DNA of 33,020 bases, from contig JAFAHI010000690.1 of assembly GCA_019237325.1 (NCBI GenBank), positions 1-33,020 of the forward strand. The letters are read 5' to 3'. Shown in pieces: positions 3,739-32,437 of this stretch. The notes beneath the pieces were generated by a model. That model made no database searches and was not told the origin of the DNA. It worked only from the letters and a program-made list of their open reading frames with translations. Numbering within the stretch: the stretch's first letter is position 1; every line of letters starts with the position of its first letter. The DNA comes from Verrucomicrobiota bacterium. Its GTDB lineage: Bacteria > Verrucomicrobiota > Verrucomicrobiia > Chthoniobacterales > JAFAMB01. A program made the position numbers and the translations under genes.

Positions 3739-3780
3739 AACTTCTGCAAATGTTACCGCAAATGAGAAAAGGAGTACAGA

Positions 3781-4169
3781 GTGGAGCGCTGCTTTCCCGC
3801 GGCCACGGGACGAGGCCGACCGGGTCGCGGCCCATGGAGGGGAGCCGCTTTTGAACGTTGCCCGTAACCTGAGCTGATCACGCAAATAACCGTCGTATTT
3901 CTGAGAGGTTGTCTAACAGGCGGCTCCCGAAAACGCCCCACGATTCCGTTTGGCCTTATCGTGTTGCATTGGTAGGAAACGAAGTGAATCGCGTGGCTTC
4001 TAGGGGCGTCAGGAGACGTTCGCGGGAGCCGCCTGCTCGCGCACGCCCACCTGGTAAACGCGAGGTTTCAAGAATGCGCGTCCAAACGGGGTCCGGTTAA
4101 AAGCGGCTCCCCTCCAGGGTTCCGACCGAATCGCCCTCGTCTCACGGCCGCGGGAAGGCAACGCTCCAC
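3781..4169 (-). mobile_element. ~390 bp nested palindromic element, copy 1 (MITE-like)
   Basis: Begins GTGGAGCGCTGCTTTCCCGC and ends with the near complement GGGAAGGCAACGCTCCAC. Inside are a second inverted pair (GGAGGGGAGCCGCTTTT / AAAAGCGGCTCCCCTCC) and a third (AGGCGGCTCCCG / CGGGAGCCGCCT), so the element folds as nested hairpins. It has no coding capacity of its own. Copies 2 (18842-19203) and 3 (32059-32437) share the same internal sequence in the opposite orientation. No clear target duplication was seen. Confidence 0.85.
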
Positions 4170-9682: not shown

Positions 9683-10429
9683 CTATCTCCGCACGAACCC
9701 AACCCGCAACGAGAGCGGCCAACGAATCGTCCGCTTCTCATCCGCCGAGCCCCAGGCTTCGCCGAGCTCCTGGCTGAATCGTTCGCGCGGTTCTGGGCCG
9801 GTCGCTCGTTCCATGGCGGCCACGGCTGACCACGTATTCATGTACCCAATAAAATCCGGAAGCGTCCAAGAGGCGCTCATGGCCATGTCCGGCGCTTGGA
9901 TTTCGGTGAAAGGGAAATCGAGTGAGCGATAACCATCCTCGACATGTTTGCGTTCAGGTGGCCAATAGGCGCCGATAACGTCCCAATAAAATCGTCCAAT
10001 GATGGAATCCAATTGTTCGTCGACCTTAACGATCCCGTAAGACACCAATCCGATGACCGATCCGGAACGTCCCACGCGACATACCTCTCGATAAAAAGCG
10101 GCCAGATCGAACCAGTGCGCTGCTTGCGCGGCAACGATCAGATCGGCAACCTGATCGTCGAGTCCGCTGGTTTCAGCCGGCGCGCAAGCATAACGGACTT
10201 GCGGATGATGGACGGCATTTTCGATCTGCTTAGCGCTGGCATCCGTTGCGTACACGTGAGCAAACTCTTCGGCCAGCAAGGTCGACAGCTGCCCGGAACC
10301 ACAGCCGCAATCCCAAGCAAATTCCTTTTGGGCAACAGTATCAGCGAGAAATCTCACCAATTCGATCGGATACGTCGGACGATAAGCAGCGTAGCCAACT
10401 GCCGACTGTGAGAAATGATCTTTAAACAT
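9683..10429 (-). CDS. Class I SAM-dependent methyltransferase
   Basis: 248 residues. The N-terminus MFKDHFSQSAVGYAAYRPTYP is characteristic of the methyltransferase-11 group that resembles trans-aconitate and ubiquinone-type enzymes. The SAM-binding motif I is AWDCGCGSGQLSTLL (38-52). The acidic ribose-binding strand follows as VYATDASAKQI, motif II as DLIVAAQAAHWFD, and later RVGRSGSVIGLVSYG. The start at ATG 10429 gives the canonical N-terminus; the eight codons upstream are palindromic repeat sequence. The methyl acceptor cannot be predicted. Confidence 0.88.
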   Translation of the reverse strand: MFKDHFSQSAVGYAAYRPTYPIELVRFLADTVAQKEFAWDCGCGSGQLSTLLAEEFAHVYATDASAKQIENAVHHPQVRYACAPAETSGLDDQVADLIVAAQAAHWFDLAAFYREVCRVGRSGSVIGLVSYGIVKVDEQLDSIIGRFYWDVIGAYWPPERKHVEDGYRSLDFPFTEIQAPDMAMSASWTLPDFIGYMNTWSAVAAMERATGPEPRERFSQELGEAWGSADEKRTIRWPLSLRVGFVRR

Positions 10430-10514
10430 CGGTAGGGATGAGCTCCTGCTCATCCGCGTTTGGGTTGCGGCGTTGCTGGTTAATAACCGGACGAGCCGGA
10501 GCTCGTCCCTACCG
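10430..10514. repeat. Palindrome with GGTAGGGAYGAGCTC arms
   Basis: The left arm CGGTAGGGATGAGCTCCTGC begins at 10430 directly before the methyltransferase start. The right arm ends CGAGCTCGTCCCTACCG at 10514. On the minus strand the right arm starts at the GNAT stop codon, so the TAG of GNAT (10509-10511) is part of the repeat. Related single arms occur at 11695, 11755, 12101 and 13222. Confidence 0.85.
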
Positions 10515-11078
10515 TATCACCTTGTACATAATAGTCGTCCCCACAAACCGTTCCTCGTGTGGCTCGCGCGCATAACCCGGGATGTGGCCGGCGCGTTCGT
10601 ATCCAAGTGAAATATAGAGTTTTTCGGCAATATCAGTAGCGGTATCGAGGGTCAAAAGCCGGCGGCCCGCATTTAAACCATAAGATTCTATTTGCTCCAT
10701 GAGAGCACGGCCAACGCCCAGCATTCGATATTTGGGATGAACCAGAAGCTTGGAGACGTCTGCCCGGTGCGGTTGGTTCGGCGGTGTATCGAGATTCAGC
10801 TGAACTGTGCCCGCCACTTGGTCGTTGACCTTTGCTGCCAACACAACGCGGGTGTTGGCAACTAAGCCGGGCGCGATCTTTTGTACCCAAAAGGCGCGAG
10901 CTTGATTCAGGTCGAATGGACTAACAAAACCAACATTCGCGCCATCGTGAACGCAAGCGAGAAGAATTTCGGCGATACTTTCCAAATGTTGTGCCAGCCC
11001 ATCTCTATCGAGCCTGAAGATTTCGATGCTATGGAGTGTGCCTCGCTTGCGAAGCGGGTTTGTCCCTGTCGAGTTCAT
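10509..11078 (-). CDS. GNAT family N-acetyltransferase
   Basis: 189 residues, transferring an acetyl group from acetyl-CoA to an amine. The acetyl-CoA loop is seen as LLVHPKYRMLGVGRALMEQI (111-130), followed by LLTLDTATDIAEKLYISLGYERAGHIPGYA, typical of the C-terminal half. The start at ATG 11078 overlaps the stop of the XRE-cupin gene by four bases (ATGA), so they form a coupled operon. Residues 8-16 (PLRKRGTLH) are encoded by a GCCTCGCTTGCGA-type hairpin word that also occurs inside DUF1643 and in the large palindromic element, so the N-terminus appears repeat-derived. The TAG stop lies in another palindrome. The substrate may be the ligand sensed by the partner regulator (inference). Confidence 0.88.
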   Translation of the reverse strand: MNSTGTNPLRKRGTLHSIEIFRLDRDGLAQHLESIAEILLACVHDGANVGFVSPFDLNQARAFWVQKIAPGLVANTRVVLAAKVNDQVAGTVQLNLDTPPNQPHRADVSKLLVHPKYRMLGVGRALMEQIESYGLNAGRRLLTLDTATDIAEKLYISLGYERAGHIPGYAREPHEERFVGTTIMYKVIR

Positions 11079-11647
11079 CGGATGACCAGGAAGTATCGGG
11101 CCGGATGCCGGTGGAGCACCCTGAATGAGCTTGCTCCGTGCAGCCGGTAACGCAGACAATCGCCTTCGGCTAATCGATGACTCGATCCGTCGACGTGCAA
11201 TTCCAAGGCGCCCGACTCTAAGTACAAGTGGTGTTCCAATCCTTGTCGCGGCGGAAGTGGATAATCGATTTGAGCGCCGGCCGGCAATTCACATTGGAGA
11301 AGCTCGCACTCAAAATCTGGCGAGGGAGGTGAAATGGAGCGCCTGCGAAAACCGGTCTCGGGATCGATCCAGACGGGCTGCGCGTTTCGCTGAACCAGCG
11401 CAGGCAGATCAGATTCTACGTAGGCCAGCAGCCGGGACATGGTCAGCTCGAATGCTGCGCACAGTTTGCCGAGCACGGAAGCGGTAGGGCTGACTTCGTT
11501 GTTTTCGATCCGGGAAAGAGTTGCGCGACTGACCCCGCTTTTTGTGGCCAGCTCTTCTAGAGACCACGAGCGTCGCATCCGGAGTTGATGCAGGCGCTGC
11601 GCCAAGCGGGTATCGGTATCGGAATGGTCGATAGCCGTTTGTTCCAT
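11075..11647 (-). CDS. XRE-cupin transcriptional regulator
   Basis: 190 residues: an XRE-type helix-turn-helix (about 14-72, including LEELATKSGVSRATLSRIEN) joined to a small cupin domain (about 110-188, with LEHHLYLESGALELHVDG and EGDCLRYRLH). Such regulators usually bind a small ligand in the cupin and control adjacent metabolic or acetyltransferase genes. It is the first gene of an operon with the GNAT at 10509-11078. A perfect 16-bp palindrome (11660-11675) sits 12 bases before the ATG and is the likely autoregulatory operator. Confidence 0.92.
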   Translation of the reverse strand: MEQTAIDHSDTDTRLAQRLHQLRMRRSWSLEELATKSGVSRATLSRIENNEVSPTASVLGKLCAAFELTMSRLLAYVESDLPALVQRNAQPVWIDPETGFRRRSISPPSPDFECELLQCELPAGAQIDYPLPPRQGLEHHLYLESGALELHVDGSSHRLAEGDCLRYRLHGASSFRVLHRHPARYFLVIR

Positions 11648-11675: not shown

Positions 11676-12125
11676 CAAAGACAAGGCGAGAAAACGGTAC
11701 GGATGAACTCCTGCTCATCCGCGATCTATCCAAGATCGTCCCTTCGCCCGAATCCCGGATGAGCACGAGCTCATCCCATTGGAGTTTGGATACTTGGGTG
11801 GCGATAGCCAAAGCTCCGTAGGAGCGAAATTTTGATAGTTACCGAGACCCCCAATTGCGGTTAGCTCCGTAGGAGCGACATCGGGTTGTGATCATGCAGG
11901 CAGCCAGGGGCCTCAACGGTCGCTAACAGGGCATAGCTTGCGGCACGCCACGTTTAAAGCGCCAAAAGGCCAGGCAAAAGTCGCGCGAATCCCTCGATAT
12001 GCCGCTCCTACGGAGCTATACCGCTATTTGTACGCCGATAGCTATAAAGATTTCGCTCCTCTGGAGCTGTTTCCCGAAGCCCAAAATGTCCAAACTCCAG
12101 AGATGAGCAGGAGCTCAACCCTACC
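11676..12125. repeat. Cluster of GAGCTCCTGCTCATCC and GCTCCGTAGGAGC palindromes
   Basis: This gene-free stretch holds two arms of the GAGCTC palindrome (11695-11721 and 11755-11777), two copies of AGCTCCGTAGGAGCG (11812-11826, 11863-11878), their inverted forms (CGCTCCTACGGAGCT at 12003-12017; CGCTCCTCTGGAGCT near 12055-12069), and a further GAGCAGGAGCTC arm at 12101-12127. The copies can pair across the region. No convincing gene is seen. Confidence 0.75.
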
Positions 12126-12818: not shown

Positions 12819-13227
12819 TGTGAAACCCGAGAAGCCTGCTCGCCGCAAAGCTGCGGAGAAAACCAGTCACACTCCGAAGAGCATTGATGAGTATCTGGCT
12901 GGTGTTCCCGAACCGGCCCGGAGCGCCTTGAACAAGATCCGGGCAACGATTCGCTCTGTCGTGCCACCGGAAGCCTCCGAAGTCATTAGTTATCGAATCC
13001 CAGCTTTCAAGTACAAGGGAATGTTAGTCTGGTTCGGCGCATTTTCTGATCATTGTAGTTTGTTCCCGGGTGCCGGAATCATCGAAGCCTTCAAGGACGA
13101 GCTGAAGCGCTACCCAATCGCAAAAGGGACGATTCAATTCCCTTTAGACAAGCCGCTACCAGTTACGTTGCTTAAGAAAATCGTAAAGGCCCGAGTTGCA
13201 GCAAACGAGGCGAAGAAACCTCGGTAG
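12754..13227 (+). CDS. DUF1801 (YdhG-like) protein
   Basis: A 157-residue DUF1801 protein. The domain spans about residues 42-150: SIDEYLAGVPEPARSALNKI, then ASEVISYRIPAFKYKGMLVWFGAF, CSLFPGAGIIEAF, and IQFPLDKPLPVTLLKKIVKAR. This small fold includes frataxin-like iron-chaperone-related proteins, but function is generally unknown. The first 20 codons (from GTG 12754) lie in the right arm of a micro-repeat palindrome; a GTG at 12820 is an equally plausible start. The stop TAG (13225-13227) is part of the GGTAGGGACGAGCTC hairpin. Confidence 0.82.
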   Translation: MLDRSSAGFSSFTSLTSVKNSSVKPEKPARRKAAEKTSHTPKSIDEYLAGVPEPARSALNKIRATIRSVVPPEASEVISYRIPAFKYKGMLVWFGAFSDHCSLFPGAGIIEAFKDELKRYPIAKGTIQFPLDKPLPVTLLKKIVKARVAANEAKKPR

Positions 13228-13248
13228 GGACGAGCTCCTGCTCGTCCG
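13222..13248 (+). repeat. GGACGAGC hairpin carrying the DUF1801 stop codon
   Basis: CGGTAGGGACGAGC, TCCT, GCTCGTCC: eight-base perfect stem (13228-13235 / 13240-13247) with a four-base loop. The TAG at 13225 ends DUF1801. Same unit and same orientation relative to the gene as at the end of GNAT (10509). Confidence 0.8.
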
Positions 13249-14854: not shown

Positions 14855-14947
14855 ATGATTCGGTTTCTGGTTCTGTTATATGGGTTATTCGCGACGATCC
14901 TGTTCTGTGCCTTAGGAATCAGTTTAGTTGCTCAATTTCGGATCTGA
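14855..14947 (+). CDS. 30-aa membrane peptide, possible NnrU/MddA-like N-terminal remnant
   Basis: An ORF of 30 codons (MIRFLVLLYGLFATILFCAL, then GISLVAQFRI) with a good ribosome site (GGGAGG, seven bases upstream). It is a single hydrophobic helix. The first dozen residues resemble the start of NnrU / methanethiol S-methyltransferase-like membrane proteins (xRFLVLLYG), so it may be a truncated remnant or a genuine small membrane protein. The last 16 bases overlap the convergent DUF1643 gene. Confidence 0.4.
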   Translation: MIRFLVLLYGLFATILFCALGISLVAQFRI

Positions 14948-15651
14948 TCCAGTCTGAATGGCTTAGGCCTGATCCTCGACTTTAAATAGAGGGGATGATG
15001 CGGTGCTCCGGTCCTGTTTCTAAGCAGGCATTCAAACGAAACGTTGAGCAAAGCCGATACCTGTCTATCGCGCCCTAGAAATCTGCCGTGGTCGCCCCAA
15101 CAAGCGATAACCCGGTCAACATTACGAACCTCTGCCAGTAAATGTTCGTTGTTATCCGGTCCAATTGGATCGCTCGCACGTTGCAGGTCGCGCGGATCAG
15201 TGGCGCGAAACGCGAACAGATTGAGCATCACCACCTCAGAGAAACCCCACTTTCTCGAATAACGGCATACTGACGCCAAGGTCTGATCAAGGCTAATTTC
15301 ATCCGCAGTACTTGGGTTTAAGCCGATCCACGCGATCCTCCTGCGCTTCACTCTCGTCCTGGTACTCGTCGTTGTCCTTCCAACTTCGCCAACGGTCTGG
15401 TTGTGGAGCGTGCCTCGCTTGCGAGGCCGAGTTGGGCGGTCGGCACTGTAGAGCTCAGGCTTCGTCGGACAGGACGTCCTCAAATCCGGGTGGGCGGCGT
15501 AGTGCATTGCGGGTGTGTTGGAATACTGAGCTCCGTCGGAGTTCGGCTCCGCATACGTGGGGGTTGGCGCGGTTTCTGCTGATAGAGGACCGCATTGGCA
15601 TCGTAAGACATAGCGATAAATGCGGTCCGGGCTAAAGACGCATGCGTTCAT
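14932..15651 (-). CDS. DUF1643 protein with a large internal insertion
   Basis: 239 residues. The N-terminal CVFSPDRIYRYVLR (4-17) and the core IAWIGLNPSTADE (106-118), SLDQTLASVCRYSRKWGF, VVMLNLFAFRATDPRDL and DPIGPDNNEHL are all DUF1643. In the family these two parts are normally about a dozen residues apart, whereas here about 88 residues separate them. The extra part (about 21-104) is low-complexity, rich in Pro/Thr/Arg, and is encoded by repeat words found elsewhere (PRPRKRGTLH from the GCCTCGCTTGCGAGGC hairpin). The frame is kept throughout. Family function is unknown; whether the product is active is uncertain. Confidence 0.78.
   Translation of the reverse strand: MNACVFSPDRIYRYVLRCQCGPLSAETAPTPTYAEPNSDGAQYSNTPAMHYAAHPDLRTSCPTKPELYSADRPTRPRKRGTLHNQTVGEVGRTTTSTRTRVKRRRIAWIGLNPSTADEISLDQTLASVCRYSRKWGFSEVVMLNLFAFRATDPRDLQRASDPIGPDNNEHLLAEVRNVDRVIACWGDHGRFLGRDRQVSALLNVSFECLLRNRTGAPHHPLYLKSRIRPKPFRLDQIRN
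15340..15591 (-). mobile_element. Putative in-frame palindromic insertion in DUF1643
   Basis: This part of the DUF1643 frame has no counterpart in the family. It contains GTGGAGCGTGCCTCGCTTGC (from 15403), matching the left end of the 32059 element copy, a GAGCTCCGTCGGAG dyad near 15528, and GGACAGGACGTCC near 15469. No stop codon arises in the coding frame. Edges are approximate and judged from where DUF1643 similarity stops. Confidence 0.55.
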
Positions 15652-18841: not shown

Positions 18842-19203
18842 ATGCGAGGCCGAAGCGCTCGGCGCCCCCTGGAGGGGAGCCGCTTTTACCCGGACCCGGT
18901 TTGCATGCACGTTCTTGAAAACCCGCGTTTACCAGCTGGGCGTGTGCGAGCAGGCGGCTCCCGCGAACGTTTCGTGGTGCTGCCGTGAACCATCGCGATT
19001 CGTTTTGTTTCCGATCAACGCGATAAGGCCAAACCACGCCATGAGACGTTTCCGGGAGCCGCCTGCTAGACAACGTCTCAGAAATACAATGGTTGTTTGC
19101 GCGATCAGCTCAGGTTACGGGCAACCTTCAAAAGCGGCTCCCCTCCATATGGGTCGCGACCGCATCGGCCTCGTCCCGCTGCCGCGGTAAAGCAGCGCTC
19201 CAC
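18842..19203 (+). mobile_element. Nested palindromic element, copy 2
   Basis: The copy runs from a degenerate left end (ATGCGAGGCCGAAGCGCTCG) to the right end AAAGCAGCGCTCCAC. It contains GGAGGGGAGCCGCTTTTACC, GAGCAGGCGGCTCCCGCGAA, CGATAAGGCCAAACC, CGGGAGCCGCCTG, AATACAATGGTTGTT, GATCAGCTCAGGTTACGGG and AAAAGCGGCTCCCCTCC in this order, as in copy 3. No coding content. Confidence 0.85.
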
Positions 19204-19225
19204 ACTCCGGTGTTGCCCTGCAAGC

Positions 19226-32058: not shown

Positions 32059-32437
32059 GTGGAGCGCTGCCTCGCTTGCGAGGCCGATGCGGTCGGCACC
32101 CTGGAGGGGAGCCGCTTTTACCCAAACCCGGTTTGCACGCACATTCTTGAAACCCCGCGTTTACTAGGTGGGCGTGTGAGAGCAGGCGGCTCCCGCGAAC
32201 GTTTCGTGACGCTGCCATGACCCATCGCGATTTCGTTTTATTTCCGAAGAACGCGATAAGGCCAAACCGCATCGTGAGAGGTTTCCGGGAGCCGCCTGTC
32301 TACCCGAACCCTTTCGGTGGCTAGACAACGGCTCAGAAATACAATGGTTGTTGGCGCGATCAGCTCAGGTTACGGGAAACAGTTAAAAGCGGCTCCCCTC
32401 CATCGGGTCGCGAACCGCATGGGCCTGGCTCCGCGCC
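32059..32437 (+). mobile_element. Nested palindromic element, copy 3
   Basis: Begins GTGGAGCGCTGCCTCGCTTG, including the GCCTCGCTTGCGAGGC dyad (32069-32084), and runs through the same ordered blocks as copy 2 to GGCTCCCCTCCATCGGGTCG. The last part of the right end (GCAGCGCTCCAC) is missing. One internal difference is an insertion of TACCCGAACCCTTTCGGTGG near 32301. The flanking stretch 31910-32058 holds no gene. Confidence 0.85.

Follow-up and report, generated by a model that had tools for sequence, protein, structure and literature searches.

Nearly half of the Rickettsia palindromic elements (RPEs) are located in open reading frames, and a conserved peptide is encoded (Ogata et al., 2000, 2002; summarised in PMC10969869). 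The GTAG/CGTC survey of Di Nocera et al. (2013; PMC3733652) identifies RPE-4 and RPE-6 as CGTC repeats and reports in-frame intragenic REPs from many bacteria, the GTAG cases being most numerous in the verrucomicrobium Opitutus terrae, whose GTAG-20 elements are there described as mostly carrying GTGG. The phenomenon as such is thus already known, both from the RPEs of Rickettsia and from intragenic REPs including those of O. terrae; the novelty that the original prediction for the locus described here had seen in such a process outside Rickettsia is already in print, a verrucomicrobium included (Di Nocera et al., 2013).

The window, namely the whole stretch of 33,020 nucleotides that was analysed, belongs to a fragmented and incomplete MAG of 785 contigs (G000), and it was compared with two sister MAGs of the same genus and of the same sort, G005 and G006 (the latter with a contamination of 9%). 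Its minus strand carries an ORF of 239 amino acids that starts at MNACVFSPDRIYRYVLR and runs in one frame, free of stop codons, into RIAWIGLNPSTADE. Residues 101–221 match Pfam DUF1643 (PF07799; E 6.7e-35, 120.5 bits, cut-off 22.5), the match beginning at model position 10; the prediction that the N-terminal motif and the core of the family lie in one frame was borne out. The distance between YRYxL and xLNPS amounts to 94 residues in this protein and to 15–25 residues in each of nine other DUF1643 proteins, recovered partly from the family and order to which G000 belongs and partly from named genomes. Within counting conventions, this agrees with the earlier estimate of about 88 residues where a dozen is usual. 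The same long linker in distant homologues would have spoken against an insertion, and distant homologues have short linkers.

An uninterrupted orthologue in a sister genome had been proposed as a check, and G006 provides it: its syntenic DUF1643 gene (locus L032, JAFAZK010000126.1, a Verrucomicrobiota MAG) lacks the insert, has a spacing of 19 residues and reads SPDRAYRYVLRHRCADMTCEIGKRIAWIALNPSTADE. The G005 orthologue (L036) contains the insert in frame but in a shorter form, with a spacing of 60 residues, and reads SPDRIYRYVLRCRCADSASENSPSPISVGYNSERAHYSNTQALRKPACQYSRTRTTTRTRTITKRIAWIGLNPS. These two loci supply the empty site and INTERMEDIATE. Most of the 12–17 kb taken from each sister is syntenic with the window on both sides of the locus. 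Alignment, also suggested as a check, placed the right border exactly, since blastn similarity to G006 ends at position 15344, and the left border to within several nt; at the DNA level the insert comprises about 225 nt and adds a net 75 codons relative to G006. The inserts of G000 and G005 differ by a large indel, yet the frame is kept in both. In the G006 gene, CTC (upstream of 1471) takes the place of the usual ATG, and the open frame extends upstream of it to begin within an apparent further dispersed repeat; this gene may therefore possess a repeat-derived N-terminal extension of its own.

At least three types of repeat are nested in the insert (Table 1): an ACTCC/ACGAG-tailed element (level 1) encloses a palindrome with a covarying stem (level 2), and this in turn encloses a GTGGAGCG-GCCTCGCTTGCGAGGC unit (level 3). 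The prediction of an in-frame palindromic insertion therefore holds with regard to the frame and to the multi-copy palindromic repeat, while the idea of one single palindrome had to be rejected. On the minus strand, level 1 opens with a 5' module (..ACGCGGGTGCAATTCGGAGAATGCGCA), continues with the ACTCCAAY array and CCAGGATTCGAGGACGAG, and closes with a tail of the ACGAG type, whose end is GAAGC. The level 2 palindrome (GTCCGCCGTAGC...GCGAAGGCGGAAGGAC) is placed between GAGGAC and GGACGACGAG; copies of it that lack the level 3 unit have a head-to-tail spacing of 45–57 nt. GTAG occurs inside its left arm, at neither end, and CGTC adjoins its stem on the opposite strand as part of the simple-sequence tail. 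The level 3 unit, GTGGAGCG(C)TGCCTCGCTTGCGAGGC, is nested in the level 2 loop, forms the stem GCCTCGC-TT-GCGAGGC and ends in GTGG, 6 nt away from the stem.

Table 1. Coordinates in the window of the DUF1643 ORF, the parts of its insert and the related unit in the GNAT ORF.
Feature	Positions	Strand	Basis
DUF1643-family ORF with insert (239 aa)	14932–15651	−	ORF translation, Pfam
N-terminal motif of the family, SPDRIYRYVLR (first beta strand of the model)	15601–15633	−	Homologue alignment, model
Inserted composite repeat in full, lacking in the syntenic G006 orthologue	15345–15570 (left border ambiguous by several nt)	−	blastn/alignment
5' module of level 1, a degenerate form related to ..CGATACGCGGGTGCAATTCGGAGAATGCGCA; shared with G005 and further copies	15526–15570	−	Copy comparison
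Level 1 degenerate ACTCC array, CCGGATT at its end	15483–15525	−	Copy comparison
Level 2 palindrome, left arm GTCCGACGAAGC	15458–15475	−	Stem alignment
Level 3 unit CTCGGCCTCGCAAGCGAGGCACGCTCCAC inside level 2 loop, peptide PRKRGTLH	15403–15431	−	Pattern search
Level 2 palindrome, right arm GCGAAGTTGGAAGGAC	15374–15390	−	Stem alignment
Level 1 ACGAG tail, GAAGC at its end, peptide RTTTSTRTR	15345–15373	−	Copy comparison
DUF1643 core, syntenic with G006 and G005, omega 0.12–0.19	14932–15344	−	Synteny, omega
In-frame level 3 unit near N-terminus of GNAT ORF, peptide RKRGTLH	11032–11062	−	Alignment with sisters

Over 22 copies of level 2, 94.3% of the stem cells are paired, compared with at most 48.5% in slid controls, and 14 cells with double changes were counted against 5.1 in shuffles, a sign of compensatory change. 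The support for folding pertains to this stem, since the insert as a whole, folded as single-stranded DNA, gained no stability over shuffles (z 0.17). Level 2 copies are stop-free in a mean of 3.2 of the six frames, versus 2.3 in dinucleotide shuffles; these extra open frames aid tolerance, but the effect is modest.

That the extra segment corresponds to a unit found elsewhere was confirmed. The GTGGAGCG/GCCTCGCTTGCGAGGC pair in the insert has relatives in the window at the start of the GNAT gene and at 32068–32096, and a 26-bp version of the level 3 unit (up to two mismatches) occurs in 165 copies in G000, while the reversed control yielded none, so that its abundance greatly exceeds chance. 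With the same pattern and threshold, a class-wide sample of 383 further genomes gave no copy; this sample omitted G005 and G006, both of which have close variants of the unit. Copies of the head motif number 11, 23 and 8 in G000, G005 and G006, respectively, with none in other members of the family; the tail motif is represented by 62 distinct copies across the three genomes, nearly all of them apparently outside convincing genes; and short forms without the palindrome stand alone (up to three mismatches) in 7, 7 and 5 copies in G000, G005 and G006. The reversed controls gave no match in any of these searches. The census, like the scan for further in-frame cases, relies on pattern matches and is incomplete. 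The window holds additional repeats: GTAG-type REP-like palindromes (GGTAGGGAYGAGCTCCTGCTCRTCCG) at 10424–10456, 11689–11721 and 13216–13248 resemble the in-frame palindrome of PBP1C from G006, and a composite repeat of about 350 bp (GGAGGGGAGCCGCTTTT ... GGGAGCCGCCTGCT) is present at 3778–4139, 18862–19206 and 32059–32434. Some copies of the latter have GTGGAGCG-type ends, and it also precedes many level 2 palindromes elsewhere.

Several further genes of the genus hold the same repeats in frame. An MFS transporter contains the full insert in G000 and G005, a short form in G006 and none in G009 and G010. In the transpeptidase domain of PBP1C (L213/L214/L215), about 26 residues of the G000 protein are added by two level 3 units arranged as an inverted pair, another palindrome (GGACGAGCAAGAGCTCGTCCCTACCG) occupies the same site in G006, and G005 has nothing there. 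MnmE (L221/L222/L223) carries a level 3 unit between DAS and the NKVDL motif in G000; in the same loop, the insert of G006 is longer and includes a degenerate level 2 palindrome, and G005 has a short native linker. The GNAT ORF of the window (10509–11159, minus strand) has a start codon that overlaps the upstream stop (ATGA), with the level 3 unit close after it (11032–11095 region); the unit is shared by G000 and G006, and an unrelated in-frame filler is found in G005. A kinase/AAA protein of G005 contains the repeat in frame in a linker, and its paralogues have other linkers. In the large paralogous family of such kinase-AAA proteins, linkers contain other repeat-like in-frame segments (DSTELAEVLS; RRIRHSRSISSQNPASAESAT; L167, L166, L156, L157). 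ORFs for HypB, CoxA, AcrB and AtpR with apparent terminal repeats were left out of the in-frame count because their true start may lie downstream, or because the repeat merely provides a new end; the C-terminal 65 or so residues of the AtpR-like small membrane protein (L016, on contig C669 of G000) are read from a level 1/2 composite. Several unrelated proteins bear related peptides. The frame in which the repeat is read differs among genes (DUF1643, MFS and kinase copies), so that the encoded peptides differ as well, and a directed reading frame, or one preferred frame with a conserved peptide, was rejected for this reason.

Between G000 and G005, omega is 0.10 for the DUF1643 N-terminus (20 codons; 6.5 changes at 11.7 synonymous sites versus 4.5 at 48.3 nonsynonymous sites) and 0.12 for the core. 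In the MFS transporter, the flanks have omega values of 0.12 and 0.08, while the insert, compared over 59 codons and free of indels, stands at about 1.1; the frame is therefore kept while the peptide drifts. The divergence of the MFS insert (L135/L136; dS 0.18, dN 0.21) is below the flanking dS of 0.46–0.62, and gene conversion between copies or a later re-insertion may account for this. In the core of DUF1643, dS is 0.33 between G000 and G006 and about 0.9 otherwise, which yields the tree ((G000,G006),G005); in contrast to the core, the N-terminus and the insert of G000 resemble G005. With this tree, the insert shared by G000 and G005 requires its loss from G006, recombination or two insertions, and the conflict within the gene suggests recombination or loss. 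The AlphaFold model of the 239-aa protein is of modest quality (seven sequences, mean pLDDT 57). In it, residues 23–98 have pLDDT values below 50 with the exception of one residue, lack secondary structure and lie between a strand at 14–19 and a strand at 105–110, so that the insert is predicted to form a disordered loop. A search of solved structures with the DUF1643 protein gave no match.

We consider it probable, at roughly 0.87, that genus-specific, non-autonomous hairpin repeats have spread and that one composite copy lies in frame in a loop of the DUF1643 protein, where it is tolerated. The observed basis consists of the empty, partial and full sites in G006, G005 and G000, the multi-copy nature of the repeats, the covarying stem, the open frame and the constrained flanking domains. 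Judging from purifying selection, the DUF1643 protein is probably functional. The composite copy would have entered the loop that connects strands 1 and 2 at the protein surface, and this loop would tolerate some 75 added residues as a disordered segment free of sequence-specific function; selection would therefore keep the frame and not the peptide. Insertions that break the frame or strike structured regions would be lost, while in-frame loop insertions would survive as neutral extensions, and such losses would explain why nearly all other copies are intergenic. Growth was possibly stepwise, the ACTCC/ACGAG-tailed element being the earlier arrival and the palindrome, with the GCCTCGC unit nested in it, being added afterwards at GAGGAC; in the mirror alternative, the short form of G005 would result from deletion of the palindrome between GGAC repeats. 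As the mover of these repeats, our most likely guess is an HUH Y1 (RAYT/IS200-type) enzyme that would act in trans on the hairpin. Y1_Tnp genes are present in G000, G005 and G006, and the repeats were found within about 1.5 kb of none of the ten best Y1_Tnp loci in the family.

The core might instead be translated from the GTG upstream of it (VKRRRIAW...), with the N-terminal part and the repeat left untranslated or persisting as a separate remnant, so that the repeat would in effect lie 5' of the gene. The insert ends GGACGAGAGTGAAG, with an SD-like AGGA a few bases ahead of this GTG, and the Pfam model matches solely downstream of its first nine positions, both of which fit such a start. We nevertheless regard it as unlikely: the N-terminal motif is conserved in the family and is kept beyond the insert in G005 and G000 with mostly synonymous changes, the frame of both genes is intact despite the indel between their inserts, and the repeats in MFS, MnmE and PBP1C lie in the middle of the gene, so that internal initiation is no rescue for those proteins. 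A chance N-terminal match, which the original prediction had named as fatal to an insertion, does not agree with the conservation of the motif in both sisters and its low omega between G000 and G005; since the N-terminus is conserved in orthologues, neither chance nor an internal start was retained as the main explanation.

In our judgement it is improbable that the peptide encoded by the repeat, instead of being tolerated, has acquired a function, for instance in regulation, binding or multimerisation. The near-neutral omega of the MFS insert (about 1.1 versus 0.08–0.12 in the flanks), the variation of the frame and hence of the peptide from gene to gene and the predicted disorder of the insert in the window outweigh the retention of the DUF1643 insert in two species, its distinctive composition rich in Arg and Thr and the related peptides in several unrelated proteins. 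Repeats provoke misjoins, the assembly of G000 is fragmented, and a chimera from assembly or binning could have put repeat DNA into the gene; as synteny with two independently assembled sister MAGs spans the locus on both sides and G005 has a shorter form of the insert, also in frame, at the corresponding position, such an artefact is highly improbable.

With tolerated insertion of mobile repeats as the preferred reading, a broader picture can be offered tentatively, and we would bet against it more readily than for it. In housekeeping proteins, some surface loops (the G domain of MnmE, the PBP1C transpeptidase domain, DUF1643, the central MFS loop and kinase-ATPase linkers) might be repeated landing sites in which sister species hold different nested palindromic repeats in frame; mobility would then be a steady source of species-specific segments, and the repeats would be biased to multi-frame readability. 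In an uncultivated, apparently free-living soil lineage, the birth of a protein segment from mobile palindromes can be traced stepwise, from the empty site via the short insert to the full nested insert in syntenic orthologues, and the same protein loops capture different repeats in sister species. This makes it testable, also for Rickettsia RPEs and intragenic REPs, whether loop insertions are tolerated by chance or favoured there.

Among known systems, bacterial MITEs with coding capacity (ERIC, BOX, Correia; PMC2229807, PMC10969869) resemble the repeats described here in being non-autonomous and multi-copy, with some fused in frame to host ORFs. The ends of the present repeats, however, are ACTCC and ACGAG simple-sequence arrays, and clear terminal inverted repeats that would match a transposase of the genome were not found. 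Intragenic GTAG/CGTC REPs are, like some of the repeats here, short palindromes that occur singly or as inverted pairs, in frame in verrucomicrobial housekeeping genes. The PBP1C insert of G000 is such an inverted pair of level 3 units, and the level 3 unit is, like GTAG REPs, a short palindromic stem-loop in high copy (165); it carries GTGG, as most GTAG-20 elements of O. terrae are described to do. Unlike GTAG REPs, the level 2 palindrome does not end in GTAG; the full element, moreover, is nested and greatly exceeds them in length, and a RAYT flanked by the level 3 unit was not found among the ten best Y1_Tnp loci in the family. The repeats differ from RPEs in that they are mostly intergenic, lie in a frame that varies by gene and consist of smaller repeats nested in one another, the ends being simple sequence. 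New are the sequences of the elements, the nested anatomy, the sister-species intermediate and the different repeats in the same loops of sister species. As a kind, RPEs resemble the present case: they too are dispersed palindromes, on the order of 150 bp long, that have entered unrelated protein-coding genes in frame and add tens of residues at tolerated positions. An in-frame dispersed palindromic repeat in genes presumed functional from purifying selection is seen here as well, together with uninterrupted orthologues in relatives for DUF1643 (G006), MFS (G009, G010), and PBP1C and MnmE (G005).
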